From Leptolyngbya sp. 'hensonii' (GTDB lineage Bacteria > Cyanobacteriota > Cyanobacteriia > GCF-001939115): 64,000 bases of DNA. Position numbers and translations under genes: made by a program. Shown here in pieces: positions 4,619-35,977 of the stretch. The DNA lies in NCBI RefSeq assembly GCF_001939115.1, contig NZ_MQTZ01000019.1, positions 62,001-126,000 on the forward strand. The letters run 5' to 3'. Positions within the stretch are counted from its first letter, which is position 1. Every line of letters begins with the position of its first letter. The notes beneath the pieces were generated by a model. The model saw nothing but the letters and a program-made list of their open reading frames with translations, made no database searches and was not told where the DNA came from.

Positions 4619-4636
4619 TAGTTTCTCCTGATTGGG

Positions 4637-6526: not shown

Positions 6527-6548
6527 GGGTTATAGCTGACGGTTTACC

Positions 6549-6705: not shown

Positions 6706-7992
6706 ATGTATATCGCAGTTGTCGGCCTCAGTCATAAAACCGCTCCAGTGGAAGTCCGGGAGAAGCTCAGTATTCCGGAGCACCAGGGAGAACCTGCAAT
6801 GACCCGCTTGAAAGCCTGTGCCCATGTGGAAGAGGTGGCAATTCTCAGTACCTGTAACCGGATGGAATTATATGTCGTCACGAATGACACGGAGTTGGGC
6901 GTTCGGGAAGTGACCCAATTCCTGGCCGACTATAGCAAACTCCCTCTAGCGTATCTGCGGCCCTATTTGTTTGTGCTTTTGCACCAGGATGCCGTGATGC
7001 ACCTGATGCGAGTCTCTGCAGGTCTGGACAGTCTGGTTTTGGGTGAGGGCCAGATTCTGGCTCAGGTCAAGCAGGCTCACAAATTAGGGCAGCAGTATGG
7101 TGGCGTGGGGCGACTACTGAATCAACTGCTAAAGCAGGCGATCTCAGCAGGTAAGCGGGTTCGGACAGAAACCAGCATTGGAACGGGGGCTGTTTCTATT
7201 AGTTCTGCAGCGGTTGAACTGGCTCAGATGAAGATTCCCCATCTTCCCACCAGTCGCGTCACGATCGTGGGGGCGGGTAAAATGTCTCGTCTGCTGGTGC
7301 AACATTTGCTGGCTAAGGGGGCTGGGCATATCTCAGTGTGTAATCGCTCGATGGAGCGGGCTGAGGAACTGGCTTCCCAATTCAAAGAAGCCCGACTGCA
7401 GCTTTTTCCGCTGGATGAAATGATGCCCTTGATTGCCAGTTCAGATTTAGTCTTTACCAGCACGGCTGCAACGGAACCTATTTTGAACCGAGGCAAGCTA
7501 GAGGCGGAATGTTCTCCTCACCGGTCTTTGATGCTGATTGACATTGCCGTGCCCCGCAATATTCATGCAGATGTGAATGAACTGGCCCATGTCCAGGCTT
7601 TTAATGTGGATGATTTGAAAGCAGTGGTGGCCCAGAACCAGGAAAGTCGGCGGGCGATGGCGATGGAGGCCGAGGCTTTGCTGGAGGAAGAATTAGAAGC
7701 TTTTGACATTTGGTGGCGATCGCTGGAAACAGTTTCTACCATTAGTAGCCTGCGGGAAAAGGTGGAAACTATCCGGGCTCAAGAACTGGAAAAAGCGCTC
7801 TCCCGTCTGGGCTCAGAATTTGGAGAAAAGCACCAGGAAATTATTGAGGCCCTCACGAAAGGGATTGTGAACAAGATCCTGCATGACCCGATGGTGCAAC
7901 TGCGGGCCCAACAGGATATTGAAACCCGACGCATGGCCATGCAATCCCTGCGGATGCTGTTTAATCTGGAAGTCGAATCCCCGATCGGGTAA
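6706..7992 (+). CDS. hemA: Glutamyl-tRNA reductase
   Basis: NADPH-dependent reductase making glutamate-1-semialdehyde from glutamyl-tRNA(Glu), the first committed step of tetrapyrrole (heme, chlorophyll, bilin) synthesis. The N-terminal catalytic domain contains [16 protein letters not shown] and the active-site Cys in [14 protein letters not shown]. The [13 protein letters not shown] segment follows, then a Rossmann domain ([17 protein letters not shown]) and a C-terminal dimerisation helix. At 428 residues it is full length. It converges on cobS, with 10 bases between the stops. Confidence 0.97.
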
Positions 7993-8002
7993 GTCATTTT
8001 GA

Positions 8003-8776
8003 TCAACTGACCAAGGTCAGCAGGCAGAGCAGGAGTGCTTCTGTCCACTCCACTACGGCTCCATAGGTGTCTCCGGTGTGGCCACCCAGTTTGTGGTTAA
8101 ACCAGGCTCCGCTCAGGAGGGCGATCGTGCTACCCCCGATGGCCAGAGTGATTAGAAAAGGCCAGAGCGGTTGAGGGCTGATTAAGGGCACCAGGGTGAG
8201 AATCAGTAATAAGACCAGGCTGGGTCCTGTATGCCAGAGGGATGGCAGGGCTACTTTGTGAAAGGCCCCCTTGCCAGTGGGCTTGAGGTAGGGGTAAGCC
8301 GCGATCGCCACCTGCTGCCCCCAGCGACTCCATCCTGCGGCTCCCAGGAGGGCCAGCCAGCGGTAGGGGGTTCCCAGATCAGACAGAGCCGCCACCTTGA
8401 GCAGCAGAATTGCAGCGGCACTCATGACCCCGAAAGCCCCGGCAGCGCTGTCAGCCATGACCTCTAAACGACGCTCTGGATTTTGGACTGCCAGCCCATC
8501 GGCTGTATCCATCGCTCCATCCAGGTGCAGTCCGCCAGTCAGGGCAATCCAGAGCACGACCACTAGAGCCGAACGAGTCATGATGGGAACTGCCAGACTC
8601 TGCAGGCCCCAATCCATGAGGCTCAGGATGAACCCAAGGATCAGCCCCACGATGGGGGCTAACCGGGCAACGTTCTGAAAATCCAGATTGAAAGCAGACG
8701 GAATAGGCAAACTGGTGTAAAAGGCGATCGCTGCTCCAGTTTGTTGAATTGCTTTAACGAAATAATTAAGGGCCAA
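8003..8776 (-). CDS. cobS: Adenosylcobinamide-GDP ribazoletransferase (cobalamin synthase)
   Basis: Integral membrane enzyme joining adenosylcobinamide-GDP and alpha-ribazole(-phosphate) in the last part of cobalamin or pseudocobalamin synthesis. Family marks are [10 protein letters not shown], the acidic loop [17 protein letters not shown], and [15 protein letters not shown], with several hydrophobic spans. The frame has no ATG near the beginning. I prefer the TTG at 8776, preceded by GAAGGTGGA, which gives the usual distance to the first conserved block. A GTG at 8812 and a TTG at 8842 are alternatives. No cobalamin riboswitch was seen upstream. Confidence 0.9.
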
Positions 8777-8842
8777 AGTTAAGTAATTTCCACCTTCAAT
8801 TTTTTCAGTCACTCTGGAAAAGCTTTGACCTGCCGGGTTCAA

Positions 8843-9168
8843 AGATGGGGGCTGAGGAGGTAGTCCATTCCCTGGGTGGGAAGATTACTGCTTTCCCTCT
8901 GCAGACAAGATCCAGGGGGAGGGGATCTACTGGAGGAAGAACAAGTTCCGTAAATTTCTGGAGTGAGTCGGCCAGAACTCCTGGGTTAGAATGATCCTGT
9001 TACGGATTAGTATTAAGATATAAGGTTTTTCCTTCTGTTTTAGACAACAGTCTAATCGCACTAATCGCAAAGGTTCCCAGGTTGTTGATAGCAGATTAAC
9101 ATCGACGTTTCGGAGATTTGCCGATCGTAATCTGCGGTGATAATTGCTGAGTCCAGGGCTTTATCTCT
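8843..9168. other. Intergenic region between cobS and the 9169 gene
   Basis: Divergent promoter region without a credible gene. An A/T-rich block (about 9015-9060) with TATTAAGATATAAGG could hold promoter elements for either side. I see no cobalamin riboswitch core and no tRNA. Confidence 0.4.
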
Positions 9169-9624
9169 ATGAATCAAGATCAATTACCCGGTGACAGGCG
9201 AGCACCCGCCCCCTGTATTGTTGATACGGGCATTGTCGTCAATAAGCGAGATATGCAGAGTATCCTGGGCGACCTAGGGTGTGTTCGTTATATTTACAGG
9301 CAGAACAACGAGCTTCTGAGTCAAGGAGAGGGGTTGGTCCTAGATGTCTTTGCTGATCCCAGCCGGTCTACCGTGGTTGCCAACCATTCGCTTTACCTGA
9401 ATGTCCTGAGTTTTGATTATCTGGAATTAAAAGTTTCCCCTGAAGCACAAACCTGCCTTGATCTTGTGCAGGATAATCTATGTTTGCAATTGATCCCCCT
9501 CTCTAATCCCCTGCAAGAACAGGTAACCTGTAATTTGAACGCTGCAGCGCTGGATGCTGTGGTTACAGAAGTGCTGTCAGCCAGTTGGGATGTGCCGATC
9601 GAAGATGGGGGCTCTCCCATATAG
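9169..9624 (+). CDS. Conserved-looking hypothetical protein
   Basis: A 151-residue soluble protein with no signal peptide. It begins with a polar segment and has a central mixed alpha/beta part (GLVLDVFADPSRSTVVANHS, LYLNVLSFDYLELKV). It ends with LDAVVTEVLSASWDVPIEDG. The composition and frame are those of a real gene, but I do not recognise the family. The next gene on the same strand encodes a CAAD membrane protein and has its own promoter-like sequence, so the two need not be one operon. Confidence 0.6.
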   Translation: MNQDQLPGDRRAPAPCIVDTGIVVNKRDMQSILGDLGCVRYIYRQNNELLSQGEGLVLDVFADPSRSTVVANHSLYLNVLSFDYLELKVSPEAQTCLDLVQDNLCLQLIPLSNPLQEQVTCNLNAAALDAVVTEVLSASWDVPIEDGGSPI

Positions 9625-9740
9625 TCAGAACTCAGGCTGGCTGTTATGTTTGAGGAAAGTCGGAACTTTATTATTCACAAAATTTGAGATTCGGGTTATC
9701 GTCAATGTTGCGATTGTATGAACAATCATTGACCTCACTA

Positions 9741-9768
9741 TTGACCTAGGGTATACGCAGAATACTAA
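9741..9768 (+). promoter_or_regulatory. Sigma-70-type promoter candidate for the CAAD gene
   Basis: TTGACC (9741-9746) and TACTAA (9763-9768) are separated by 16 bases, about 85 bases before the start codon. A second TTGACC lies at 9729. This is a pattern match only. Confidence 0.4.
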
Positions 9769-9852
9769 TCCTCTGTGTTCTCATAGTTTTTTGGCTCTGA
9801 TGCATTAAACTCTCAACACAGGTACACAGGTCGTCATTTGCAAGGTATCGAT

Positions 9853-10302
9853 ATGAATCCTGAACTTCAACAGACTGAATATTCTGATGGTATCTCTCCC
9901 CATGCGGAGACAGCCAAAGCTAAGCTTGACAACAATGCCGGTGCTACAGAATCTGGTACTACAGGTCTACTGCCGTCCGCTGAATCTGGGCAGTGGCAGC
10001 AGATTGGTCTCCAAATGTTTGATTTCTTCAAGGATCTGGCTAACTACCTGGGGGCATTCATCAAAGAAAAACCCCTGACGGCTGTGGGTCTGTTCTTGTT
10101 GGCTGCTGTCTCTGTTAAGTTAACCCTGGCAGTTCTAAATGCCTTAAATGATCTGCCTCTGGTTGCTCCTACCCTGGAGTTGATCGGGATTGGCTACGTG
10201 ACCTGGTTTACCTTCCGGTACCTCTGGAAGGCAGCCAGCCGTCAGGAACTGATCGAACAGATTCAGTCTCTGAAAGGTCAAATTGTGGGTGATGACGAGT
10301 AA
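9853..10302 (+). CDS. CAAD domain membrane protein
   Basis: A 149-residue protein with a disordered, acidic N-terminus followed by the CAAD domain (cyanobacterial aminoacyl-tRNA synthetase appended domain). The domain is seen here as FFKDLANYLGAFIKEKPLTA, two transmembrane helices (VGLFLLAAVSVKLTLAVLNA and LELIGIGYVTWFTFRYLW) and the amphipathic tail RQELIEQIQSLKGQI. Related stand-alone proteins (CURT1-like) sit in thylakoid membranes and shape curvature; fused versions anchor tRNA synthetases. I use the ATG at 9853; a TTG five codons upstream is also open. Confidence 0.85.
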   Translation: MNPELQQTEYSDGISPHAETAKAKLDNNAGATESGTTGLLPSAESGQWQQIGLQMFDFFKDLANYLGAFIKEKPLTAVGLFLLAAVSVKLTLAVLNALNDLPLVAPTLELIGIGYVTWFTFRYLWKAASRQELIEQIQSLKGQIVGDDE

Positions 10303-10376
10303 GGAGATTTCCGACCAGGAAGTTTTCAGCAGTGATTACCCCATAGTTGGGACGGTTTTCTCTGGCTTCCCATGAC

Positions 10377-10533
10377 TAACTCTGCTGGTTGACTGACAAA
10401 ACTCCTGAAACCCTTGAAATCTCGTAGGTTGGGTTGAGATCTGAAACCCAATGCAAAAGCCTTGTGAAAGTTGGGTGGAGCAGAGTGAAACCCAACCTGC
10501 AAAAAAAGTTTTGTCAGTCAATCAGCTAACTCT
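10377..10533. mobile_element. MITE-like element with TAACTCT target duplication
   Basis: A 143-bp element (10384-10526) has 20-bp terminal inverted repeats matching at 19 positions: left GCTGGTTGACTGACAAAACT, right the complement with one change. It is flanked by a perfect 7-bp direct repeat TAACTCT at 10377-10383 and 10527-10533, as expected of a target-site duplication. The interior holds two imperfect palindromes of the GTTGGGT...AACCCAAC type, common in cyanobacterial genomes, and no gene. It was presumably mobilised in trans by a transposase not present here. Confidence 0.8.
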
Positions 10534-10705
10534 GTCCTCAGCCCTTACCTCAAAGTTAGGCTTTGATTTGTTGAGTTTGGCCACACAAACTCAATGGGGC
10601 GGCCCGACTGGGTACAAAGAAGGGCAGAAAGAAAGTCAGTTAATCTATGGATCAGGGGAGAGAGTTTGAGGATAATCTCTCCCTTGCATTATTCCTCCAT
10701 CTGTT

Positions 10706-10963
10706 CTAAATATCCGGTATGGGCAGAATCCGCAAAAATTTGATGATTTCACCGGTGATTTCAATACCCACCAGATAATTATCTAGAGTGAATCGGTAGA
10801 AAATTGCACTGGCTCCGATCTGGTGCAGCTCTGGTAAATCGCGGAGCTGGCCGAGAGTGAGAAAATCATCAAACACAAACTGTCGAATCCGCTGATAGGC
10901 AGCTGGTTCCAGGTCTTTCAGGTCTTGCAGAAATGACCTTTCGTATCTTACCTCAAGCTTCAC
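10706..10963 (-). CDS. RelE/ParE-superfamily toxin-like protein
   Basis: An 85-residue protein with the short alpha/beta layout of RelE/ParE toxins. It opens with MKLEVRYERSFLQDLKDL, then a helix QRIRQFVFDDFLTLG, then strands FYRFTLDNYLVGIEITGEI and FLRILPIPD. RelE toxins cleave ribosome-bound mRNA; ParE members attack gyrase. The sequence does not decide which applies. A small upstream gene on the same strand (11057-11254) is the natural antitoxin candidate, 93 bases away rather than overlapping, which is unusual. Confidence 0.7.
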   Translation of the reverse strand: MKLEVRYERSFLQDLKDLEPAAYQRIRQFVFDDFLTLGQLRDLPELHQIGASAIFYRFTLDNYLVGIEITGEIIKFLRILPIPDI

Positions 10964-11013
10964 AACCGATTAATTAAACGAGTAATTTAAGGCGAAAGTT
11001 AGGCCGTAGCATT

Positions 11014-11028
11014 CAGGGAATTTCCCTG
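11014..11028. promoter_or_regulatory. Short palindrome between antitoxin-like and toxin-like genes
   Basis: CAGGGAA-T-TTCCCTG forms a 7-bp inverted repeat around one base. It may be an operator or a small hairpin between the two genes. Only the palindrome is observed. Confidence 0.3.
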
Positions 11029-11056
11029 GATGCCTCAATTCTTGCTTGACAGACCC

Positions 11057-11254
11057 CTAAGGGAGGAGAAGGGAGCGGAGCGCTTCTTCGCGGGTCAGGC
11101 TATCTCCAGGAGTCAGAGTTGCCTTAGCATCCTGGATTGCCTTCAGCATATAGGAGTCATAATACAGACCTTTGAGTGCCATCCAGATATTCTCTAGGTC
11201 CTCTTCAGAGAGGCGATCGACCAGACGATGAACTCTACTGCGCAGGGGATTCAT
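11057..11254 (-). CDS. Small protein, probable antitoxin partner
   Basis: A 65-residue, mainly helical protein (HRLVDRLSEEDLENIWMALK, then YYDSYMLKAIQDAKATLTPG and SLTREEALRSLLLP). It resembles the short partner proteins placed ahead of RelE-type toxins in cyanobacteria: an N-terminal helical region and an acidic C-terminus with a T/S-REEAL motif. The antitoxin role is inferred from size and position, upstream of the RelE-like gene on the same strand. Confidence 0.55.
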   Translation of the reverse strand: MNPLRSRVHRLVDRLSEEDLENIWMALKGLYYDSYMLKAIQDAKATLTPGDSLTREEALRSLLLP

Positions 11255-11308
11255 AGGAAAAGCCGTAGATAGAGAACTGGGCGCGGAGCAACGATTCAGT
11301 TTAACCTG

Positions 11309-11334
11309 CCTGTCCAGGCTGGAGCAAGGACAGG
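11309..11334. terminator. Hairpin CCTGTCC/GGACAGG with T run
   Basis: A 7-bp stem (11309-11315 and 11328-11334) is followed on the plus strand by TTTTT. It lies between the protease gene and the antitoxin-like gene. The T run suits plus-strand transcription best, but no plus-strand gene precedes it, so its function is unclear. Confidence 0.3.
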
Positions 11335-11412
11335 TTTTTGGTCGAACATGCTTTCCCAGAGTTATGACCCATGATGCCCCTGAAGATGAACCCCATCTGG
11401 GCGCACCTATCT

Positions 11413-12543
11413 CTAAGGCCGACTCAACTCCAGACTGCCCCCAGCAGGGGTACCCAGTTGATCCCGCTTACCGAAGCGCCAGTGCTGGCGGTAGCGGTTG
11501 AGAAAATTCTGGCCGATGATGCCATCCACACCCAGCAAATCTAGGGGGCCAGCATCCAGGACGATCGCGGCCAGTTGCTTCACCTGATGGGATTGGATAG
11601 CAACTTGATCCAGCTGCACTTGCTTCCCCCGCGCTGAACCACAAAACCCTGTCACTGTAATAGGTTTAGCAGTTTTCAGGTTGAGGCCCAGTCGTTTTGC
11701 GACCCGTTCTGAGAGGACCACCTGATCCGCCCCTGTATCTAGGGCCAGGGTATAGGGGCCCTGATTATTCAGGCGCGTCTGGACTGTCATCACCCCCAAT
11801 TTCCCCACCAAGGGAATGCCTTGCTGAGTAGGAGCTGACGGAGGCAAAAGCGTTAACTGGGGGATGTGAGGGTCCAGTAAGACATCATAGTTGCTGAGAA
11901 AATCCATCCCCAGGACACCCGAGAGCTGACCAGGAATTGCTCTTTTGGGTAATCCCAGACCGGATAATCCCTTGACGCTAGCAGTCTCTACAGCCAGTTC
12001 GGGCAGGGGATACACAGCTGCATTCAGGTTGGTACATTTCTCTCCTACCACCATGTAGGTCATCAGTCTGTCGGGAATTGGTGTACCCCGCAGCCGCAAT
12101 TGTTTCGCCAGATCCTTCTCAATCAAAGAGGTGGACGCTCCTGTATCCAGCAAAAAGGGCCGGCCCTGATTTGCGGTTTGGACCCGGATAGTGAACACCT
12201 GACTCCCTGGCAACCGGCTGAGGGCCACCTGTGCCTGCCCCCGGCTGACGGGTTTGGGGATTTTTATCCCACTGACTTTAACCAGGGCCGCCATGCGATC
12301 GTTGGCATCCTGTCTGACTTTGCCTTCCGGGGTCAGAATCACGACTTCAAACATGCACTGCATGGAGAGGGCCTGGAGTTCATCCAGAGCAAACTTGGGG
12401 ATGGAGGGAAATTTCTCCACCATACAGGTGCTGAGTTGCTCCTGCAATTGACGCCCCAACTGGGTTGTATTCACAGGAGCGGCCAGCGCTACTCCTGGAA
12501 GGGACAGGGCGATCCCAGCGATCGCAAGCCAGCCTACTCTCAT
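11413..12543 (-). CDS. Retropepsin-like aspartic protease, two catalytic motifs
   Basis: A 376-residue exported protein with a signal peptide (MRVGWLAIAGIALSLPGVAL, cleavage near A-A-P). It has two retropepsin-like half domains, each with an Asp-Thr-Gly-Ala motif: FLLDTGASTSLIEK (Asp133) and LALDTGADQVVLSE (near residue 268). Hydrophobic-Gly companions VLGMDFLSNYDVLLD and GIIGQNFLNRYRQHW follow. Bacterial retropepsins normally dimerise to join two such motifs; here one chain carries both, as in pepsins. It is probably periplasmic or lumenal. The ATG starts one base after the argS stop, so translation is probably coupled. Its substrate is unknown. Confidence 0.85.
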   Translation of the reverse strand: MRVGWLAIAGIALSLPGVALAAPVNTTQLGRQLQEQLSTCMVEKFPSIPKFALDELQALSMQCMFEVVILTPEGKVRQDANDRMAALVKVSGIKIPKPVSRGQAQVALSRLPGSQVFTIRVQTANQGRPFLLDTGASTSLIEKDLAKQLRLRGTPIPDRLMTYMVVGEKCTNLNAAVYPLPELAVETASVKGLSGLGLPKRAIPGQLSGVLGMDFLSNYDVLLDPHIPQLTLLPPSAPTQQGIPLVGKLGVMTVQTRLNNQGPYTLALDTGADQVVLSERVAKRLGLNLKTAKPITVTGFCGSARGKQVQLDQVAIQSHQVKQLAAIVLDAGPLDLLGVDGIIGQNFLNRYRQHWRFGKRDQLGTPAGGSLELSRP

Positions 12544-20200: not shown

Positions 20201-21292
20201 ATGCTGAGAGCCGGTATTGTTGGACTGCCCAATGTGGGTAAATCGACGTTGTTTAATGCCCTGGTTGCGAATGCAAAAGCCCAGGCTGCAAATTTTCCTT
20301 TCTGTACGATCGAGCCTAACGTCGGTGTGGTGGCTGTGCCAGATGAGCGGCTGCAGGTACTGGCGAAGATTTCCGGTTCGGCTGAGATTGTGCCGACGCG
20401 GGTGGAGTTCGTGGACATTGCCGGACTGGTGAAGGGGGCTAGCCAGGGGGAGGGGCTGGGCAATCAGTTTCTGGCCAATATTCGCGAAGTGGATGCGATC
20501 GTTCACGTTGTCCGCTGTTTTGAGAACGACGATATCATCCATGTCTCCGGGGCCGTTGATCCGGTGCGAGATATTGAGGTGATCAACCTGGAACTGGCAC
20601 TGTCGGACTTATTTCAGATTGAGCGTCGAATCGAGCGGACCCGCAAACAGGCTCGCACCAATAAAGAAGCCCAACTGGAACTGGAAGCACTGGAAAAATT
20701 GAGTGCTGTTTTGAATGAAGGCAAGCAGGCTCGCCAGGTAGACCTGAGCGAAGAAGAGGAATTAGCGGTTAAACAGTTAGGATTGTTGACGCGCAAGCCG
20801 ATAATCTTTGCCGCCAATGTTCTGGAAGATGATCTGGCTATCGGGAATGCCTGGGTGGAACAGGTGCGGGAGGTGGCAACCCGTGAGGGGGCGCAGGTGG
20901 TGGTGGTTTCGGCCCAGGTCGAGTCAGAGCTGGTTGAGTTGCCAGAAGAAGAGCGGGCAGATTTTCTAGAGTCTCTAGGGGTGCAGGAAGGAGGGTTGAA
21001 ATCCCTGATCCGCGCCACCTACGAACTGCTGGGCCTGCGAACCTACTTTACGACTGGCCCAAAGGAGACTCGGGCCTGGACGATTCAGGCAGGGATGCTG
21101 GCTCCCCAGGCTGCAGGTGTCATCCACACCGATTTTGAGCGTGGGTTTATCCGGGCGGAAACGGTAGCCTATCAGGATCTGGTCACTTGCGGGTCTATGA
21201 CTGCTGCCAAGGAAAAGGGCCTGCTGCGGAGTGAGGGGAAGGAGTATCTGGTCCAGGAAGGGGATGTGCTCTTATTCCGGTTTAATGTCTAG
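20201..21292 (+). CDS. ychF: Redox-regulated ATPase YchF (Obg family)
   Basis: A universally conserved P-loop protein that hydrolyses ATP rather than GTP and binds the ribosome. The Walker A motif is GLPNVGKSTLFNAL, the G3 motif is FVDIAGLVKGASQGEGLG, and NVLED stands at the base-specificity position of the NKXD motif. A coiled-coil follows, then the TGS-like C-terminal domain ending in YLVQEGDVLLFRFNV. At 363 residues it is full length. Its last 11 bases overlap the end of the convergent kinase gene. Confidence 0.97.
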   Translation: MLRAGIVGLPNVGKSTLFNALVANAKAQAANFPFCTIEPNVGVVAVPDERLQVLAKISGSAEIVPTRVEFVDIAGLVKGASQGEGLGNQFLANIREVDAIVHVVRCFENDDIIHVSGAVDPVRDIEVINLELALSDLFQIERRIERTRKQARTNKEAQLELEALEKLSAVLNEGKQARQVDLSEEEELAVKQLGLLTRKPIIFAANVLEDDLAIGNAWVEQVREVATREGAQVVVVSAQVESELVELPEEERADFLESLGVQEGGLKSLIRATYELLGLRTYFTTGPKETRAWTIQAGMLAPQAAGVIHTDFERGFIRAETVAYQDLVTCGSMTAAKEKGLLRSEGKEYLVQEGDVLLFRFNV

Positions 21293-23039
21293 CCGATCGC
21301 CAGAGGCGAATGGTCTTATCCTGACTGCAACTGGCGATCGTCGTCCCATCGAGACTGATGGCTACCCCATAAACGGCATCGTCATGGCCAGAGAGCACGG
21401 CCTGTTCCTGTCCCGTCTTCCCATCCCAGAGCTTGAGGGTTTTATCCCAACTGGCGCTGATCAGGACGCTGCCGTCTGGACTGAAAACCAGACCGGAAAC
21501 TGTCCAGGAGTGGCCAGAAATGATCTGCACAGTTTCACCAGAACCCACATCCCATAATCTGATCTGATTGTCATCGCCAGCACTGGCGATCCGTTTGCCA
21601 TCGGGACTGAAGGTGACAGCGCGCACGGCCCAGGTGTGTCCCGTCAGGGTGGTGATGGGGGTTCCTGATCGCCAATCCCACAGGCGCACGGTGCGGTCCT
21701 GGCTGCCACTGGCTAGCAAACTGCCGTCTGGGCTAAAGCTCACAGTCGTTATCCCCAGGCTATGGCCTAATAGGGGGATGACAGTGCTAGTTGGGAGATG
21801 CCAGAGGCGCAGGATTTTATCCATCCCCCCGATCGCCAGGGCTTGCCCATCTGGACTGAAGCTCAGGGTTTGAACAGCCGACGGAAATTCTCCCAGAATC
21901 CGATGGTTCTGCTGACTGACCCAATCCCACAGACGCACGGTGCGGTCCTGGCTGCCACTGGCCAGGATACCCTCGGAACTCCAGGCTAGGGCTTTGACAA
22001 AACCACTATGGCCCGTCAGACAGGTCCGCTGCTCAGCGGTTGACATGTCCCAAAGGCGTAGGGTTTTATCATCACTGCCACTGGCGATCGTGCTCCCATC
22101 TGGGCTGATCACCACCGTATTGATCGTGGCAAACAGGCCCCCATGACCCATCAGGGTCGCAACACAATTCCAGGTGGGAGCAGGGAGCAGGTCCTGGGAC
22201 TGAGCCAAGGACTCCCCATCCCAAGCGACTTTCTGCTCCGATTTACCCACCAGTGCATAGTGATGCATCGTCTCAAGGACTTCTGGGGCTGATTGAAACC
22301 GCCGATGAAGATCCGGTTCCACCATGCGGTCCAAAATTCGACAAAGGTTATCTCGCATGGTCTCAGAAGCGGAATCGCTTTCCAGGGGACGGTAATACGA
22401 TCTCCAGACCGATCGGCTTTCTCCTCCATCCATCAGATCAAAGGGTCGCAGATCTGTGAGCAAATGAATGCAGGTTAACCCCAGGCTGTAAAGATCGCTG
22501 GCAAATCCAGCCTGGCCCTGCAATTGTTCTGGAGCTGCATATTCTGGACTACCGAGCAAGGTGAAGGAGGGTACGGGGGAAAAGGGCAGGATAGGCTCAA
22601 CACTATCCACCAGCATCAGGACAGGAGATCTTCCAGATGCATAGATGAGATTCGCGGGTTTAATGTCCCCATGGTAAAACTGTTGCTGGTGGATCAGCTC
22701 CAGGACGGGCAAGATGCTGTCGAGGACCTGGATGACCTGGGCAATGGTGAAGCTCCCCTCCTCCGCCAGCAGGGTTTCCAGACTGCGCCCTTTGATATAT
22801 TCCCAAACACAACAAACTTGCGTTTCCGTGGCAAACCAGTCCAGCACTGTTGGGATTTGGGGATGGGTGCTGAAGTTTTGCAGATGGTGAATCCAGGACT
22901 CTACTGGGGGACGGCCTCGCAAAGGTAGGGCTTTGAGCACACAGGCGATCGGGGGAGAGTGCCGTTGATCCAGGGCCAGAAAGGTTTTCCCAGGGCTTCC
23001 CTGCCCTAAGGGCCGCACAATCTGATAGTGACTTTCCAT
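21282..23039 (-). CDS. Serine/threonine protein kinase with WD40 propeller
   Basis: A 585-residue Hanks-type kinase (about 1-255) joined to seven WD40 repeats (about 290-585), enough for one closed propeller. Kinase motifs are GQGSPGKTFLA (P-loop), the lysine of CVLKAL, catalytic HGDIKPANL and AAPEQLQG. The DFG triad reads D-S-V (MLVDSVEP), retaining the metal-binding Asp only, so activity may be modified. WD40 blades end in LRLWD, VRLWDW, LRLWHL, VRLWDW, IRLWDV, LKLWDG and IRLWRS. No membrane span is visible, so it is probably cytosolic. Targets are unknown. Confidence 0.92.
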   Translation of the reverse strand: MESHYQIVRPLGQGSPGKTFLALDQRHSPPIACVLKALPLRGRPPVESWIHHLQNFSTHPQIPTVLDWFATETQVCCVWEYIKGRSLETLLAEEGSFTIAQVIQVLDSILPVLELIHQQQFYHGDIKPANLIYASGRSPVLMLVDSVEPILPFSPVPSFTLLGSPEYAAPEQLQGQAGFASDLYSLGLTCIHLLTDLRPFDLMDGGESRSVWRSYYRPLESDSASETMRDNLCRILDRMVEPDLHRRFQSAPEVLETMHHYALVGKSEQKVAWDGESLAQSQDLLPAPTWNCVATLMGHGGLFATINTVVISPDGSTIASGSDDKTLRLWDMSTAEQRTCLTGHSGFVKALAWSSEGILASGSQDRTVRLWDWVSQQNHRILGEFPSAVQTLSFSPDGQALAIGGMDKILRLWHLPTSTVIPLLGHSLGITTVSFSPDGSLLASGSQDRTVRLWDWRSGTPITTLTGHTWAVRAVTFSPDGKRIASAGDDNQIRLWDVGSGETVQIISGHSWTVSGLVFSPDGSVLISASWDKTLKLWDGKTGQEQAVLSGHDDAVYGVAISLDGTTIASCSQDKTIRLWRSARH

Positions 23040-23147: not shown

Positions 23148-25496
23148 CTACATCCCTTCGATCGTCACCATAGCTCCGGCGGCTTCCAATTGGCGACGAT
23201 AATTCTCGACTTCAGTCTGAGAGAGATACTCGCCAATAATTTGCGGAGCGATGTTGGCCTCCATGACCAGATCCATGGCTGCCTGGAGGTCGATGCCAGT
23301 CAGGGTCTGAACCGCCTGGGCAATTTCCTGCCGATTGCCGCTGGGCGGTGTTGTCAGGAAAATCTGAAATTCAGAGATGGTCTGGATGGGTGGTGGGGCG
23401 GGCAAGGTCATGATGGGGGCCGGTGGCAGTTCAGAGATCTCAGATTGCTCGGGGGCGGGTGGGCGAGAAGCCGTTGGGAGGGGCTTTTTCACCTTGCTTT
23501 TGCCGTTGCCGGAGGGGGAAGATGGGGTGGATTGGTTCCAGAGTAACATCCCCATCAGGCCATCCAACAGTCCAGTGCCCTGGCTACCCCCACTGACGGC
23601 CACATCGGGGACAACCCGCACATTGCGATCGCCGACAATTTGCATCATCTGCAGGGCCGTGTAGCCCTGGTCGCCCAGAGCTTCCACACCAGCCCGGTAG
23701 GCATCAGCTTTGGCTTCCCCGGTCAGGCGAATGGCTTCGGCTTCCCCGGATGCCTGTTTCACCCGCGCATTGGCCTCCAGTTCAGCGATTTTCACCCCTT
23801 CTGTGGCGGTGACCATCTGGCCCTGAATGTCTGCCAGTGCTGTCTCCCGCACCAGTTCCTGCCGCTGGGTTTGGGCAATGCGCTGGGCTTCGTAGGTCTT
23901 CTGCTGTTCTTCCGCAATCTTGCGATCGGTCAGGGTCTGCATCAGTTCGGGAGGTGGGGTAATCCGGCCAATCAAGCTATCCACCGCCTGGACATCATAG
24001 GCCCGCAGAGCTGCCCGCACATATTCTGCAGCTTCCGCCTGCCGTTGACTGCGGGCGATCAAAAAGTCCAGGATCGTATATTCCTGGGCCGAATTCCGAA
24101 AATAGTTGCCGACGATCGGGCGCAGCACATGATCCACCACATTCTGCATCGACCCCAGACGGGAGATCACCTTGGGAGCATCCAGAGCCCCAATATGGAT
24201 AATCTGGAACACTTCCAGATCAAAGGTAAAGCCATCAAAGGACAGGAGCTTTAGGGTCTCTAGCTTAGAATCGTAGCCATGCTCCCCACTGATCCGATGG
24301 GTGAAGTTAAGGACAATATTGGTGGTCGGCACCAGTTCGACCTTCATCACTTTGGTATTGAGGGGGTGTTTACCAGGATAGAGGGGCGTTACCCAGACTC
24401 CTTTATCCCCCGGATTGACCAGGCTGCCGTGGGTAAAGGACTCACCGGTGACATCGATATCAGACTTACCCACAAAGGAGATGACCACCCCGACATACCC
24501 GATCGGGACCTCCGTCATCGGCACCTGCTCCACATGGACAAACCAGGGATTCAAGTTCCAGGAACCGGATAGGATCACCTGTTCCTGTAAACCCCGCCGA
24601 CCTCCGGCTTCAATGAACTTCTGGGTATTCTGGAAATTGTCGTGCCCCGGCACGGTGGAACCGGCAATCTCACCTGCTTCGATCGGTTGTCCATCCAGAG
24701 TTGTGGCAATCCCAACCGTATCCTGGTCTACGGTATAGACCCGCAGTTGATGGGGTTTCATCCCATGCTTGGCTGCATTCTCAGAGGTGATGACAGTAAA
24801 CAAACCGGTATTGATTCGGTAAGTCCCTGTGGTGATAATTCCGAGTTGCCGACCCTTTTCGCCTCCCCGGGTGAGAAATTTGCGCCCATCCTGGAAGTTA
24901 TCGCAGATCACCGCTTTACCCAGAATGCGCTCTGGTGGAATCGATGCCCCATCATTGGCTACTACCAGGCCAATCTCATCCTGGGGAATCACCACCACGG
25001 GTTCTCGTCGGACGGAATACTGCCAGGGCCAGTAACCCCAGTGCCAACCCGGAGCCAGAGTATCGGCCTGCAGCCCAGCCTCTTTCTCCAGGGCCACCAA
25101 CCGCCCAGGGGGCAGATTGCGACTGGCGAATTTCTTAACCACAATCCCAACTTCCCGATCGCCCACGACCACCAGTCCAAATAGGAAGCCCAACTGGGGG
25201 GCAAAGATGAGCCCACCCCCAAGGATCACGATCGGAAAGACCCAGACTGGAATGGCCAGACCATCTACTTGAGCCAGATAAGGTTGGATCAGGGTTTGGG
25301 TTGGGTTGACCGCCACTGTAGCTGCCAGTGCCGGTTGTCTCTCAGGACGCAAGGAGAGTTCCATCCCCGGCTGAGCAGCCTCCGAACGGGCTTGAGTCTG
25401 AACCGGAACCGTCATCTCTGCCGCCAAAGCAAGAGAAACTGCCAGAGGCAAAGCTTTCAGCCAACCAGGCAAGCAAACCTTTGATGATTTTTTCAT
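23148..25496 (-). CDS. SPFH/band-7 (flotillin-like) protein with L7/L12-like tail
   Basis: A 782-residue protein. A signal-like hydrophobic N-terminus is followed by a membrane span (about 80-110, IPVWVFPIVILGGGLIFAPQ). Then comes a long SPFH region (about 115-490) and a helical, Ala/Glu-rich segment (about 500-620, AEEQQKTYEAQRIAQTQRQE). A Pro-rich linker leads to a final domain (about 710-782, FQIFLTTPPSGNRQEIAQAV to LEAAGAMVTIEGM) resembling the C-terminal domain of ribosomal protein L7/L12. SPFH proteins form membrane-anchored oligomers in microdomains; the tail could recruit a partner. Ordinary flotillins lack such a tail. Confidence 0.87.
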   Translation of the reverse strand: MKKSSKVCLPGWLKALPLAVSLALAAEMTVPVQTQARSEAAQPGMELSLRPERQPALAATVAVNPTQTLIQPYLAQVDGLAIPVWVFPIVILGGGLIFAPQLGFLFGLVVVGDREVGIVVKKFASRNLPPGRLVALEKEAGLQADTLAPGWHWGYWPWQYSVRREPVVVIPQDEIGLVVANDGASIPPERILGKAVICDNFQDGRKFLTRGGEKGRQLGIITTGTYRINTGLFTVITSENAAKHGMKPHQLRVYTVDQDTVGIATTLDGQPIEAGEIAGSTVPGHDNFQNTQKFIEAGGRRGLQEQVILSGSWNLNPWFVHVEQVPMTEVPIGYVGVVISFVGKSDIDVTGESFTHGSLVNPGDKGVWVTPLYPGKHPLNTKVMKVELVPTTNIVLNFTHRISGEHGYDSKLETLKLLSFDGFTFDLEVFQIIHIGALDAPKVISRLGSMQNVVDHVLRPIVGNYFRNSAQEYTILDFLIARSQRQAEAAEYVRAALRAYDVQAVDSLIGRITPPPELMQTLTDRKIAEEQQKTYEAQRIAQTQRQELVRETALADIQGQMVTATEGVKIAELEANARVKQASGEAEAIRLTGEAKADAYRAGVEALGDQGYTALQMMQIVGDRNVRVVPDVAVSGGSQGTGLLDGLMGMLLWNQSTPSSPSGNGKSKVKKPLPTASRPPAPEQSEISELPPAPIMTLPAPPPIQTISEFQIFLTTPPSGNRQEIAQAVQTLTGIDLQAAMDLVMEANIAPQIIGEYLSQTEVENYRRQLEAAGAMVTIEGM

Positions 25497-27905: not shown

Positions 27906-30392
27906 TCATCTGGAGCGCCCTGAAATATCAGCTAACTCCTTTCCCACTCTTTGGAGCATCGCGAAGAACGGTTTCCGGTTTGACCGCCGGTTCAAGCACT
28001 CCGGCAGGGTATAAGCCCAGAAAGCGGCGGTGGGTAAGAGCCAGGGGAGGAGAAGATGGGCGGAGATGTAGAACTGCAGGCTGAGCAGGCCATACCCGAT
28101 CGTTCCCCCACCAATGGCCCAGCACCAGACCTGGGGATTGGGAAAGCGACGCATCCCGTACACAGTGCCAGCACCCAGGAAGAGGGCAACGACGATCGCC
28201 CAGAGATCGGGAATTGGCACCACCAGGTTGCCGGTTAGATAATGCTGCACCAGATAGGCATGCAGTTGTCCTCCGGAAAAGCTGGTTTGCTGACTGGTGC
28301 GGAGCCAGTATTTGACACCAGCAGGTTGGGGCAGGGTATCCTGCCCCGCCCCCGCAACACCCGCTTCATCGTAATAGGGGACGATCAGGACCACCTGTGC
28401 TGGAATGCGATCACCCTGGGGAATGGCTGCCGGGTTCTTCAGCACCTGCCAGGCTGGAACGCGGGTGTAGATGCGATCGGGGGGGAGAGAGTAGTCAATG
28501 ATTGGGTTCAGCCACATCTGACCGATGCCATAGGCAAAATTGGTGATCGGATGCAGTTGGGCCTGGGGTGGGAAAAAGCCGGAATGGGGGGTGCCCTGCT
28601 TCTGGAGGGTGCGATCGAGTTGCTCCCACAGGGTCGCCTCCGTCTGGGGTAGGGAGAGGGGATGGTCCCGATTCTGGAGTTGGCGGGTCAGGGCTAGAAG
28701 ATAGGCGAAGGGCAGCCTCTGGGGATAGGACGCTGATTGGGCGTCTCCCTGACTGTAGGGGATATAGTAGGTGGCGGCATTGATATGGCCTTCCAGCATC
28801 CAGGTGGGGGCAGCAATTTCGCCCAGGGTGCTGAGCCAGCCCGGATTCATGTCATTCCGAACGGTGGGCAAAACTAACCAGGTGCGGTGGGGATGGCGTT
28901 GGGCGGCGGTTCGGAAAGCCTGGGCCAGACGACGATCGCCCTCGGCCCCATCCCGATCCTGGTGGGAACGATCCAGCAGGTAGTCAATTCCCAGAACTCT
29001 GGCATCCAGGGCCGTGAGCCGATCGACCAGAGTGGCCAGGTAACGCCGGTCCATGGGATTGGGGGTCGAAATTTTGGCTTCCCGGATCGAGTCGGCATCA
29101 ATTTGGACCAGTAACACGGGCGGGGGATCTGTGGGGATTTGGCGGGTAACCTGGCGATAGGCAGCCTGAATCCCCGTGCGTTGATTCAGTAACTCTGCCT
29201 GTAAGCCCAGATTGCCACTGAGTAGGGTCAGGGCTGCCAGGCCGATCGCCGATCGGCGTCCCGGTAGACTCTGTTTCACGGTTTTCCAGAGACCCCTGCA
29301 GGGGATGCGAAACAGGGTGGCCTGGGGATGGCGAAACAGGGAGGGGATGAGATGGGCGGAGGGATAGGTGACATTCAGCCCAAGCTTGAGATGGTGACAG
29401 GCTCGTAAGAGGGCAGTATGGAGATCCTGATGGTCATCCAGACCCTGCAGCACCTGCGCCAGAAATTCCTGGGCCACCTGGTTATGGATGGGTTCTCGCA
29501 TCACCACCACCTGACTCAAACCCAGCCCAATCAGAGCATCGGCAATACTGAGGCCACTGCAGGAATTGAAGAGGGCAAACTGGAGCCCCTGTTTCCTGGC
29601 CAGGGCCAAATCGGGGGCAATTTCCTGAATCAGAATCGACTCTCCGGGGGCGATCGCCAGTTCACCGCCCGTCAGGTCTGTTTCGTTGCTATGGCCAATG
29701 AAAAACAACCCATCCCAACCCTGAGGGTCAGTGATGGCAGTACGGATGGCCGTCATCAAGTCATGTCTCTTTTGCCCAGGCTGCCAACCCAGAAATGTGA
29801 CGCCTCGCTTGAGTTTCATATCCTGGATCGCCTGCTTCTCGGCTTCAAAGTTCAACCCGGTCTCATCCCCCAGGATGACGAGCAGACGGGGATTTTGTCG
29901 CTGGACTTTGGGAGAGGCGTCCTGCGTGATGTTGGCTGCTGTCCGGGCGATCCGAATCATGCCGCTGGTGGTGCGAATTTCCCAGGCTTCCCAGGGGAGG
30001 CGAGCCAGATCGATCGAATTGCAGGACAGAAAAAGATCCAAAGGGGCGTTTGCCTCTCGATCTGCGGATTCGGCCAGAGTCCCTCGGATTTTGATCAGCT
30101 CCCCCCGATTCAGCCAGTCATGGAATTCGGACAGGAGTTTGGCCTCCGCTTCTGCCAGTTTGGATCGCCAGCCTGTAGGGGGCGGCGTCACCGAGCCACT
30201 CTCCACCGCCTTACCTCTGAGTTCCTTCTGGTAGAAATTCAGGTAGGTGCGTTGCCAGATCTGATAGGCGGTAGTGAGCACTATCGGATAGGTCATCTGA
30301 GCGGTTAGCCTCTGGCCTTCACCCCAGGTCAACTTAAAGAGACAACTTTGTTCTACCCGGTTAACTTCGAGCTGGTAGGGGAAGGCATACAT
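27906..30392 (-). CDS. CHAT-CHASE2 protein (caspase-like protease plus sensor)
   Basis: An 828-residue protein. The N-terminal part (about 165-350) is a CHAT domain, a caspase-like fold, with both dyad residues visible: His in LFFIGHSNETDLTGGE (about 234) and Cys in FALFNSCSGLSIADAL (about 278). A membrane span follows (about 370-392), then an extracytoplasmic CHASE2 domain (about 405-700, with VLLVQIDADSIREAKI, LVDRLTALDARVLGIDY). Two or three C-terminal spans end it. A sensor may thus control a cytosolic protease. The start is the ATG at 30392, or the TTG at 30398. AAAGGAGG at 30417-30424 is unusually far upstream. It follows the DUF1822 gene. Confidence 0.88.
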   Translation of the reverse strand: MYAFPYQLEVNRVEQSCLFKLTWGEGQRLTAQMTYPIVLTTAYQIWQRTYLNFYQKELRGKAVESGSVTPPPTGWRSKLAEAEAKLLSEFHDWLNRGELIKIRGTLAESADREANAPLDLFLSCNSIDLARLPWEAWEIRTTSGMIRIARTAANITQDASPKVQRQNPRLLVILGDETGLNFEAEKQAIQDMKLKRGVTFLGWQPGQKRHDLMTAIRTAITDPQGWDGLFFIGHSNETDLTGGELAIAPGESILIQEIAPDLALARKQGLQFALFNSCSGLSIADALIGLGLSQVVVMREPIHNQVAQEFLAQVLQGLDDHQDLHTALLRACHHLKLGLNVTYPSAHLIPSLFRHPQATLFRIPCRGLWKTVKQSLPGRRSAIGLAALTLLSGNLGLQAELLNQRTGIQAAYRQVTRQIPTDPPPVLLVQIDADSIREAKISTPNPMDRRYLATLVDRLTALDARVLGIDYLLDRSHQDRDGAEGDRRLAQAFRTAAQRHPHRTWLVLPTVRNDMNPGWLSTLGEIAAPTWMLEGHINAATYYIPYSQGDAQSASYPQRLPFAYLLALTRQLQNRDHPLSLPQTEATLWEQLDRTLQKQGTPHSGFFPPQAQLHPITNFAYGIGQMWLNPIIDYSLPPDRIYTRVPAWQVLKNPAAIPQGDRIPAQVVLIVPYYDEAGVAGAGQDTLPQPAGVKYWLRTSQQTSFSGGQLHAYLVQHYLTGNLVVPIPDLWAIVVALFLGAGTVYGMRRFPNPQVWCWAIGGGTIGYGLLSLQFYISAHLLLPWLLPTAAFWAYTLPECLNRRSNRKPFFAMLQRVGKELADISGRSR

Positions 30393-30422
30393 AAGCAAGT
30401 AATATCAGCAGAACGACCTCCT

Positions 30423-31610
30423 TTATATGCTATCCCGAGGCTCTGGGGCTGGTTGAAACACGAAAGCGGGCAGGGTGAGGGCCATGCCGTTGAACAGGGC
30501 GATCGTGGCCGTAAATGGCTCTTCCTGGTTACCGATCAACCTGGCAAAGAGATAGGTTGGGTTCAAGGTCTCGTCCAGGGTCTGGTCTACCAGAATTTCG
30601 GTGGCATCTCTGATCTGGAGGGTAATCCCCGCAGGCAGAGGAACCGTTGTCTGGCTGCCTAAGATCAGGAGTAGACTCCATTCGGGGGTGCCAGTTCCTG
30701 ATATCTGGGGCCAGGTGATGGCATAAAGCCGCAGGCCATGGCCTCCCAGCAGAAAGTCGTGATAGGCTCCCCGAGACTGGGGAAGCAAGGGGGAACCGCT
30801 GCGGCGCTCCAGTTCTAAAATCACGCCTGCCAGTTCATCAACTGGGGAGAGCATGGACGATCGCAAGGCTGGAACCAAATCTGGCAGTAGAATCCATTGG
30901 ATCTGCTCCATCAATGCCTCCAGTTCATCCCGCAGCCAGAGGCCCACGTTGATCACCGGCTGCAGGAGGGGTTGCACCAGGAGATTGGCCACAGGCACCT
31001 GCGGCCCCGTGGTGTGGGGCAGGGGAATGGCTTTAGGGTCCAGGCAGCAGAGGTAGAGGAGCAGGCGATCGGGTCTGGCTTCAAACCAGGCCAGGGGCAG
31101 ATTGTAAGTCTGTTCCAGGGTCGCTGTCAGGGCATGGGCCTGGCGCTTTTGTTGCAGGCGATCGTAGCGCAGGAAGCCCTGCACCTGGACCTGGCCCAGA
31201 TCCTCCAGCACTTCCAGCAACACATAGAAGTGGGGGATATATTCAGGCCAGTCTACCGCCGGAACGGGAACCTCGATGATTTCCTCCATCAGACTGCCCA
31301 GGGCGATTAAGCCCAAGCGGAATGGACCCACCTGCACCCGTAGCATGCTGACTTCCTCAGCCTTCGGTAAGGAAAGGCAAGTGGTCTGATCGACCTCCAA
31401 GGGAAGGTCAGGTGCCTGCGTGTGAATCCACTGGGAAAAACCGGCCAGGGCCAGGGCGTTCAGGTAGACCTGCCACTGTTGCTGGGGCGAGGATAACTGG
31501 CGGCTGATTTGGCGAGCCCGATCGATCTCGGCGGCTTCCAGGAGCAGGGTTTCCGGTTGCAGGGCAGTGAAATCAAACATAGGGGCTGACCAGGTACATG
31601 GGACTTTCAT
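30423..31610 (-). CDS. DUF1822 family protein
   Basis: A 395-residue cyanobacterial protein of the DUF1822 family, with the N-terminal block QQQWQVYLNALALAGFSQWI and the later EYIPHFYVLLEVLEDLGQVQ, where homologues often have similar aromatic-rich strands. It has no signal peptide or clear membrane span. No biochemical function is known. Its ATG overlaps the stop of the sigma-like gene (ATGA, 31607-31610), and it ends 30 bases before the CHAT-CHASE2 gene. All three are therefore probably one operon, and DUF1822 may link sensor and regulator. Confidence 0.85.
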   Translation of the reverse strand: MKVPCTWSAPMFDFTALQPETLLLEAAEIDRARQISRQLSSPQQQWQVYLNALALAGFSQWIHTQAPDLPLEVDQTTCLSLPKAEEVSMLRVQVGPFRLGLIALGSLMEEIIEVPVPAVDWPEYIPHFYVLLEVLEDLGQVQVQGFLRYDRLQQKRQAHALTATLEQTYNLPLAWFEARPDRLLLYLCCLDPKAIPLPHTTGPQVPVANLLVQPLLQPVINVGLWLRDELEALMEQIQWILLPDLVPALRSSMLSPVDELAGVILELERRSGSPLLPQSRGAYHDFLLGGHGLRLYAITWPQISGTGTPEWSLLLILGSQTTVPLPAGITLQIRDATEILVDQTLDETLNPTYLFARLIGNQEEPFTATIALFNGMALTLPAFVFQPAPEPRDSI

Positions 31611-32977
31611 AGCGCCTCCCGATGCTCTTTAAGATAGCAACATAAACTACGGGCAAAGTGACTCTGGAGGCATTGGCTTTGGGGGTGAGCGGCTTCCGCT
31701 TCGGCCTCCTGAATAACGGCCTGGATCAACTGATCCAGGGCTGCATCCACCTGCTGTAGCCGATCCGGCTGCAGGTTCAGCCCTGCCGTGGTCAGGAGGA
31801 ACCTTGGCAGGTGCTGCAGCATGGTAAGCCGGACTGCATCTCGCAAGTCCTTCAGCTTGAGCAGTCGGGAGACCTCAAACTGTTGCTTTACCTGAATCAG
31901 GGGGGCAATCCGGCCCATGGCCAGCCCCTGACAGTGAAACAGCTCCAGTGCTTGCAGGAAATTGCGGGCTTTTTGGGCATCCTTCCGCTCCAGGGCTGCG
32001 ACCCGCTGCTGGATGACCTGGGCGATCGCCCGCTCCAGGGTACTGTCGAACTCCCGGCGAAACAGCGCCAGGAACTCTGCCTGCTCCCGATCGTCCTCAC
32101 TGAAGCGCGGATCGGTCAGTCCCTCTGAGACCCGATCGTCCAGGGCCAACTGGCGCACCTGACCTTTCCGGGCATGAATCCGGTATTCCCGTAACAGCTC
32201 AGCGATCTCTCGCAGTCGCTGCAAGACTGGTCGGGGAGACCAGCCTTGATCAGGGAGCAGGGCGACCATTCGTTGCAACTGCTCCTCCGTGGGTGGGGAG
32301 CAACGCCCCTGGCTCTTGCGCTGGAGGCGATCGTGACGGTAAATAGCATGATAGCTGGCCAAAATCTGGACATCCTGACGGATCAGGGTGGCTGGGAGGC
32401 GGTGGAACAGGGCGAAAATCCGTTCCAGTTGGCGGAGTTGGGTGTCATTAAGAATAGCCCAGTCACTGATCAGGTAGATGCCATGGGCTAACAGGAAGGT
32501 ATTGAGTTCACTGCTGCGTCTAATCCGAAGACTGACCCAGGTGCTGAGGCTACTCTGTTGGGCATCAAAAGTCTGCAAAATATCATAGCCAGTGGGGACA
32601 AAAGTCTTCGGTTGATCCGTCGATGGCCCAGAGAATTCTGGAATATCATTGAGCACACAGGCCAGTAAATCATGACGGGTGAAGCCGTTAGTCCTCCCAA
32701 ATTGATTATCCAGGTGGGTACAAACCTGAACAATCTGACCAGAAATGTAACATCTCAGGCTCAATGCGGCCAGACGCCGCCTTTCCATCGTTTCGGCAGG
32801 GGCTTTGTAAATCGTCAGCAGGTGTCGTTGCATCTGCTGATCTGAAGGGGAGACTTCCGGATTGCGATCGAGCCATTGTTCCTGACAGAAAGTTTTGACC
32901 AGAGGCAGCTCGGTGGTGAGATAGCCCCCGGCTGGGTTGATCCGGAAAAAGGTCCAGTAGGTGGATGCGATCGTCAT
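31607..32977 (-). CDS. Divergent sigma-70-like protein of the CHASE2/DUF1822 block
   Basis: A 456-residue soluble protein. It resembles a highly divergent sigma factor: a helical N-terminal half with ERRRLAALSLRCYISGQIVQ and YDILQTFDAQQSSLSTWV (region 2-like, compare the F-S-T-W of true factors). A C-terminal helix-turn-helix-like block, ALELFHCQGLAMGRIAPLIQ then QFEVSRLLKLKDLRDAVR (about 345-395), recalls region 4. A charged linker lies between. It is the first gene of the block and is translationally coupled to DUF1822. Whether it binds core polymerase is not shown; a plain DNA-binding protein is the alternative. Confidence 0.6.
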   Translation of the reverse strand: MTIASTYWTFFRINPAGGYLTTELPLVKTFCQEQWLDRNPEVSPSDQQMQRHLLTIYKAPAETMERRRLAALSLRCYISGQIVQVCTHLDNQFGRTNGFTRHDLLACVLNDIPEFSGPSTDQPKTFVPTGYDILQTFDAQQSSLSTWVSLRIRRSSELNTFLLAHGIYLISDWAILNDTQLRQLERIFALFHRLPATLIRQDVQILASYHAIYRHDRLQRKSQGRCSPPTEEQLQRMVALLPDQGWSPRPVLQRLREIAELLREYRIHARKGQVRQLALDDRVSEGLTDPRFSEDDREQAEFLALFRREFDSTLERAIAQVIQQRVAALERKDAQKARNFLQALELFHCQGLAMGRIAPLIQVKQQFEVSRLLKLKDLRDAVRLTMLQHLPRFLLTTAGLNLQPDRLQQVDAALDQLIQAVIQEAEAEAAHPQSQCLQSHFARSLCCYLKEHREAL

Positions 32978-33274
32978 AGGTGGGAACTCACATTCAGATA
33001 CCTTGTGACTCTCTTGGATGGGTGAGGCTTGTCTGCTGGTATCTTATAGTTCTGAAGCCGATCCTCCTATGCAGGTGTTGGGTCATATAGGTAGGAAAAG
33101 CGATCGACGGCTGCCGGGGCCACAAGACCAGTCAGGAGTCAGCAAGTGGGCCAGCAGGGTGTTTAACCTCTCGCCCAGGCTCTGCCGGAGTGCCTAAGCA
33201 GACCCACCCCGGCGCTACGCGCCACCCCTCCCAAGAGGGGATTGTTGCCTATGAAACTGTAATGGGTCTAGATG
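32978..33274. other. Intergenic region before the relic zone
   Basis: No gene seen. Its right part carries the hairpin repeat listed at 33201-33242. The sequence upstream of 32977 should hold the promoter of the sigma-like operon, but I cannot pick a convincing -35/-10 pair. Confidence 0.4.
33201..33242. repeat. Cyanobacterial intergenic hairpin repeat
   Basis: Two adjacent palindromes, GGCGC-TAC-GCGCC (33211-33223) and CCCCTC-CCAA-GAGGGG (33225-33240), in the arrangement typical of a repeat that recurs in many filamentous cyanobacteria. Confidence 0.55.
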
Positions 33275-33291
33275 TCAAGGATTGAAGGGGT

Positions 33292-33315
33292 GGAGAGGTT
33301 GCATGTAACCTCTCC
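33292..33315. repeat. 9-bp palindrome GGAGAGGTT/AACCTCTCC
   Basis: Perfect arms around a 6-base loop, 14 bases beyond the CRISPR-type repeat. It could act as a hairpin terminator for the relic. Confidence 0.6.
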
Positions 33316-33329
33316 ACGCCACAAAATCT

Positions 33330-33631: not shown

Positions 33632-35977
<2,346 letters not shown>

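Follow-up and report, generated by a model that had tools for sequence, protein, structure and literature searches.

A sigma-like, DUF1822 and CHAT-CHASE2 operon of Leptolyngbya sp. 'hensonii' as a candidate sensor-protease-sigma system preceded by a promoter-like motif

Introduction

Kaur et al. 2021 (PMC8195603, section 9) described EACC2-caspase proteins whose C-termini vary and include CHASE2, and found an extracytoplasmic function (ECF) sigma factor and DUF1822 in the majority of EACC2-caspase neighborhoods without TRADD-N. Their proposal combined autopeptidase activation with a transcriptional response via the sigma factor; the word promoter is absent from their text. Here we analyze an operon of this kind in a 64,000-nt stretch of the Leptolyngbya sp. 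'hensonii' genome (the window, meaning the whole stretch analyzed): three minus-strand neighbors at 27906–32977 that encode a sigma-like protein (P0001), a DUF1822 protein (P0002), and a CHAT-CHASE2 membrane protein (P0003). A full-text literature search identified PMC8195603 as the sole paper found with DUF1822 and CHASE2 together. Because that paper describes the neighborhood, we treat the operon as belonging to a system already predicted rather than as an unknown pathway. The motif that precedes the operon is apparently unreported and, with its exported-protein targets in relatives, is apparently the new part of this analysis.

The locus resembles the published system in its constant N-terminal domain immediately ahead of a caspase-superfamily protease, its variable C-terminus (CHASE2 is named in the paper), its sigma and DUF1822 neighbors, and the proposed transcriptional output. 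It differs in two respects: the sigma-like protein of the window has diverged beyond what Pfam recognizes, and DUF1822, called a TPR protein in the paper, is modeled here as an alpha/beta protein with a beta-sandwich. The original prediction for this DNA held that no such signaling pathway was known; this was wrong at the level of prediction, as PMC8195603 had predicted a protease-triggered sigma response in 2021. The gene order, catalytic dyad, and sigma likeness on which that signaling reading was built all hold; the reading itself is partly supported and was largely anticipated in print.

In the RseA/RpoE and RsiW/SigW systems, the anti-sigma factor spans the membrane, whereas in the present operon the protease is the membrane-spanning component. 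Both systems are cited in PMC10028731, and both share with our operon an extracytoplasmic signal, a protease, and a released sigma factor. In the CASP/type III-E system, Csx30 binds and inhibits CASP-sigma and is cut by Csx29 (PMC10028731). The parts correspond—a CHAT protease (Csx29, a TPR-CHAT protein), an intermediate protein (Csx30), and a sigma factor (CASP-sigma)—and cutting the intermediate is considered to free the sigma factor from inhibition. Unlike the operon with its membrane sensor, however, that system is triggered by RNA via Cas7-11, and the DUF1822 profile has no detected similarity to a solved protein of it. CalpL/CalpT/CalpS, in which a protease cleaves the anti-sigma factor, has the same three-part logic of sensor-protease, anti-sigma, and ECF sigma, but its protease is Lon-type and gated by cA4 through SAVED (PMC11417357).

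We propose, at a likelihood we place slightly short of evenly balanced, that the operon is a sensor-protease-sigma system of the kind described by Kaur et al. and would work as follows. The extracytoplasmic CHASE2 domain, which is present in P0003, would sense a stimulus. This stimulus would switch on the cytoplasmic EACC2-CHAT caspase-like protease, whose dyad is intact and which is presumed to be active. The protease would then cleave DUF1822, which, by analogy with Csx29-Csx30-CASP-sigma, would keep the sigma-like protein inactive at rest. Once released, the sigma-like protein would guide RNA polymerase to promoters composed of TGCATARG (-35-like) and CAGAnnTA (-10-like); one such promoter would drive the operon itself, creating positive feedback. 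DUF1822 is encoded between the sigma-like and protease genes, and this position, together with the analogy to Csx30 and to CalpL/T/S, makes it the likeliest inhibitor and substrate.

Results

The three genes travel together well beyond this species. The sigma-like protein is present in 15/59 related genomes and in 47/386 genomes of the phylum, representing 34/143 genera, some at weak scores. A one-genome-per-species scan yielded 80 named cyanobacterial loci, of which the nearest 66 were used for the gene-order count, several of them interrupted by contig ends. The order sigma-like, DUF1822, N-domain-CHAT-CHASE2 is kept in nearly all sufficiently long loci and over many cyanobacterial genera; 42 of the 66 close loci carry the complete adjacent triad, whose genes mostly overlap slightly or lie a few tens of bases apart. 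In the other close loci, DUF1822 was not recognizable (16 loci), stood without an upstream sigma-like gene (6), or was separated from the protease gene by several kilobases (3, one also counted in another group).

Individual loci show further arrangements. The sigma-like gene of L073 (8321–9757) lies downstream of the protease gene, and in L079 (3386–7930) and L080 (4445–7930) the DUF1822 and protease genes are separated by an inserted gene of 1161–1514 aa, which Pfam identifies as TPR-CHAT in L079. An in-frame sigma-DUF1822 open reading frame (ORF) in L090 was not used; it lies on a low-coverage contig where a frameshift is likely. All three DUF1822 copies of the present genome adjoin an EACC2-CHAT gene. 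Its second cassette (L024, G000:C20:47000-60000, 3669–12265) encodes on one strand a sigma-70 region-4 protein, DUF1822, N-domain-CHAT-CHASE2, DUF928, and a TPS-domain exoprotein; the third (L025, G000:C38:4000-20000, 5678–9977) consists of a short ECF-like gene, DUF1822, and a CHAT module fused to Peripla_BP_6 in place of CHASE2.

The relationship of P0001 to sigma factors emerges from comparison of families. A Pfam scan of the protein gave no family match, neither to sigma region 2 nor to region 4, and almost none of its 54 relatives match (one reaches PF08281 at E 0.015). Since Pfam is the standard family test, we call P0001 sigma-like and not a sigma factor. Its homology to sigma factors is nonetheless supported by profile–profile comparison. 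The paralogue in the second cassette, a 406-aa protein, has a clear Sigma70 region 4 (PF04545, 1.2e-8), and the P0001 family aligns with the L024/L149 pair at an hhalign probability of 97.2% (E 4.7e-11, 242 columns, helix-turn-helix included); comparison with the short (~215 aa) ECF-like genes of other cassettes was not significant. Residues ~64–165 are assigned by analogy to a putative region-2-like block.

Structure prediction points, more weakly, in the same direction. The AlphaFold (AF2) model of P0001, built from 54 sequences, is almost entirely helical, with a predicted local distance difference test score (pLDDT) of 90.2. In a fold search of 350,542 PDB chains, its best two matches were sigma factors, at weak E values of 0.09 and 0.15, and PDB sequence searches with profiles of the sigma-like, DUF1822, and CHAT-CHASE2 proteins returned weak, chance, or no matches. 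The sigma-70-like call of the original prediction thus could not be read from P0001 alone, but stands through the profile comparison and, more weakly, through the fold; on the profile comparison, a confident model, and sigma factors as weak top PDB matches taken together, P0001 looks like a sigma factor.

The model also bears on a different assignment of the substrate. Its only very-low-confidence stretch, residues 279–288, separates the two halves assigned putatively to regions 2 and 4, and a cut in this flexible linker could activate or inactivate the sigma-like protein, as in pro-sigma factors, with DUF1822 as an adaptor. No conserved cut site is visible there, however, because the linker is poorly conserved in both length and sequence among relatives, and we consider it improbable that the sigma-like protein is the substrate. 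As for DUF1822, the AF2 model of P0002 (pLDDT 87.7) has an alpha/beta fold with a C-terminal beta-sandwich, and the protein is a candidate anti-sigma factor, adaptor, or protease substrate. PDIP38 was considered as a fold relative; it was the best match (E 9e-4) but had low template modeling scores (TM-scores) and is not relied on.

P0003 combines a CHAT domain (PF12770, 1.6e-6; 28.3 bits versus a cut-off of 24) with CHASE2 (PF05226, 2e-18; 67.3 bits versus 26.3). The ~118 conserved residues directly before CHAT, found in orthologues and distant paralogues, are termed EACC2-like by their position. The catalytic dyad is invariant: His and Cys are retained in 14/14 aligned proteins and in 80/80 CHAT domains. 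Residues are numbered here from the TTG start (His236/Cys280); the intact dyad at about 234 and 278 reported originally is right when counted from the ATG two codons downstream. Across modules of this type, N-domain-CHAT is constant and the C-terminus varies among CHASE2, Peripla_BP_6, and nSTAND1-WD40; the periplasmic-binding-protein version occurs in this genome (L025), and the nSTAND1-WD40 version in other genomes.

A constant EACC2-CHAT portion with a variable C-terminus also suits the autopeptidase proposal of PMC8195603, the only paper found on the neighborhood. In that scheme, CHAT would be chiefly an autopeptidase that cuts its own chain; EACC2-CHAT would leave the membrane and then act on its two partners, the sigma-like protein and DUF1822, while leaving both uncut. 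The usual place of DUF1822 between the sigma-like and protease genes is left unexplained by it, and we regard self-cleavage as a serious but unlikely alternative to cleavage of DUF1822.

Promoters are to be expected if P0001 is a sigma factor, and sigma factor genes often drive themselves. The upstream regions of 51 sigma-like genes contained over-represented word pairs, and an expectation-maximization (EM) model gave AAAAnTGCATAaG, a spacer of 10 to 12 nt (mostly 11), and CAGAanTAtat, at a log-likelihood of 299, whereas shuffled sets reached no more than 89. The consensus TGCATARG-N11-CAGAnnTA is bipartite and promoter-like, and 39 of the 51 training upstreams score above 8. In the window, the downstream end of the motif lies 66 nt upstream of the sigma-like gene's ATG. 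It is the sole window match at ≤1 mismatch (0 in 100 shuffles), and the genome (5.94 Mb) contains no other strict match.

The motif recurs outside the training set. Among held-out genomes, 13/21 sigma-gene upstreams score above 8, compared with 0/21 for the reversed matrix. Across the 80 loci (1.17 Mb), 113 sites score above 10, versus 5 in shuffled sequence and 2 with the reversed matrix; because the loci were selected around this operon and training sites are included, this count speaks for clustering around the operon and does not delimit a full regulon. Loci of this clade (947 kb) account for 112 of these sites, and those of the other EACC2-CHAT clade (219 kb) for the remaining one. Where sites do not precede a sigma gene, 60/80 are intergenic against 15% expected. 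The motif precedes DUF1822 or CHAT genes that stand apart from the sigma gene (L073, L093, L099; L074, L078), and some complete triads carry an extra copy before the CHAT gene (L107, L113, L130). Upstreams of the short ECF genes contain no motif, except for a weak site (8.6) in this genome's C38 cassette (L025), 33 nt before the ECF-like gene.

At whole-genome scale, 37 sigma-positive genomes gave 59 matches to the motif pattern versus 7 to its reversed control, compared with 61 versus 46 in the others (Fisher 3e-6), or 59/7 versus 28/20 within the same class (p 1.4e-4); as related genomes are not independent, these p-values are too small, and the held-out and control comparisons weigh more. 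The motif is enriched genome-wide only where P0001's sigma family occurs, and we infer that P0001 recognizes it. Recognition-helix sequences differ between motif variants. When motif bases were compared with sigma residues for co-variation, the highest-scoring columns were spread throughout the protein, and hence shared ancestry explains these differences equally well.

The same data bear on whether the motif could instead be an operator for another regulator, with the sigma-like protein serving as a scaffold or a different transcription factor. A P0001 without a Pfam sigma match and motif variation that does not track region 4 specifically would be compatible with an operator. Against it stand the two-part architecture, the promoter-like spacing, the position mostly 20–60 nt before start codons, and an enrichment confined to genomes with this sigma family; we give an operator a small probability.

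In relatives, the motif also precedes genes outside the triad. It lies 20–60 nt before the start codon in 34/55 other target genes. An N-terminal hydrophobic stretch, called by a crude hydrophobicity rule and not by a signal-peptide predictor, is encoded by 34/55 target genes versus 231/697 background genes (p 3e-5). The 19 target genes scanned with Pfam include caspases with DUF4384, TPR-CHAT proteins, subtilases, a TPS exoprotein, and TPR proteins. In many relatives the motif thus stands in front of genes for exported caspases, TPR-CHAT proteins, subtilases, and TPS exoproteins, and the system there probably controls a program of exported proteases and adhesins.

These targets also bear on a defensive role. 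CHAT proteases are effectors in anti-phage and programmed-cell-death systems, and PMC8195603 puts the family there; in such a module the CHAT protease would kill the cell and the sigma-like protein would be secondary. NCBIfam and PADLOC scans of the three operon proteins yielded nothing useful, with no PADLOC match. The housekeeping gene ligA (33632–35665) adjoins the operon as its upstream neighbor, ~650 nt away, and relatives link the operon to exported proteins, not to defense genes. We judge a killing module very unlikely.

Discussion

Several results weigh against the proposed release of the sigma-like protein through DUF1822 cleavage. For the first component, besides the missing Pfam match, P0001 is much longer than a typical ECF sigma factor, and the fold match of its model is weak (best E 0.09). 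For the second, comparison of DUF1822 with known anti-sigma factors and solved structures by PDB profile and fold search found no convincing relative, and its cleavage by CHAT is put forward by analogy. For the output, 12/51 training and 8/21 held-out upstreams are without the motif, and co-variation between motif and P0001-family residues gives region 4 no prominence beyond other parts of the protein. At ≤2 mismatches, the motif shows no excess in the window's genome (11 versus 15 for the reversed control); the upstreams of CHAT/caspase genes there, as far as examined, contain no strong site, and only the operon itself has a clear one.

The distribution of the motif nevertheless raises a broader possibility, which we hold with somewhat greater doubt than the mechanism proposed for the operon: a widespread cyanobacterial pathway in which a sensor-gated transmembrane caspase-type protease would release a highly divergent sigma factor with its own promoter class, switching on exported caspases, TPR-CHAT proteins, subtilases, and TPS exoproteins along with the operon. 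To our knowledge, cyanobacteria carry up to dozens of CHAT/caspase genes, mostly without a known function or regulator; the window's genome (5.94 Mb) has 33 CHAT and 6 caspase (C14) matches. A motif tying many exported CHAT/caspase genes of relatives to one operon would offer a testable handle on their role and timing. If the pathway exists, it would extend the CHAT-protease-to-sigma logic of CRISPR systems to membrane sensing.

Operon layout and neighboring genes

The operon is compact: the DUF1822 gene overlaps the sigma-like gene by 4 nt (ATGA), and the protease gene begins 24 nt past the DUF1822 gene. This layout of three same-strand genes with an ATGA overlap and a short gap had been given originally with exact coordinates. 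Feature positions are collected in Table 1.

Table 1. Positions of operon features in the window, with the basis of each assignment
Feature	Position	Strand	Basis
Sigma-like protein P0001, 456 aa	31607..32977	-	ORF; no Pfam match
Putative sigma region-2-like helices, residues ~64-165 (LRCYIS...VLND...FDAQQSSLSTW)	32483..32788	-	Conserved block, helical in model; assigned by analogy
Putative region-4 helix-turn-helix, residues ~334-390	31808..31978	-	Aligns with Pfam Sigma70_r4 stretch of paralogue L024:3669-4889
DUF1822 protein P0002, 395 aa	30423..31610	-	PF08852 1.5e-35
Membrane protein P0003, 830 aa: EACC2-like N-domain, CHAT, and CHASE2 with flanking transmembrane segments	27906..30398	-	
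N-terminal EACC2-like domain, residues 1-118	30045..30398	-	Conserved before CHAT in orthologues; placed as in published EACC2 domain
CHAT protease domain, residues 122-336	29391..30035	-	PF12770
Catalytic His236, in GHSNE	29691..29693	-	Invariant
Catalytic Cys280, in FNSCSG	29559..29561	-	Invariant
CHASE2 extracytoplasmic sensor, residues 412-741	28176..29165	-	PF05226
Bipartite motif ACACCTGCATAGG-N11-CAGAACTATAA, core 33047-33073	33044..33078	-	Position weight matrix score 18.0

Between ligA and the motif, an inverted repeat without a T-run, GGAGAGGTT-ACATGC-AACCTCTCC, occupies window positions ~33290–33316. The window also carries two fusion genes on the minus strand. One (23148–25496) encodes an oddly composed 782-aa protein, in which Band 7/SPFH is joined to a C-terminal stretch that matches the C-terminal domain of ribosomal L7/L12 (1.3e-7); the other (21282–23039) encodes a Ser/Thr protein kinase fused to WD40 repeats.

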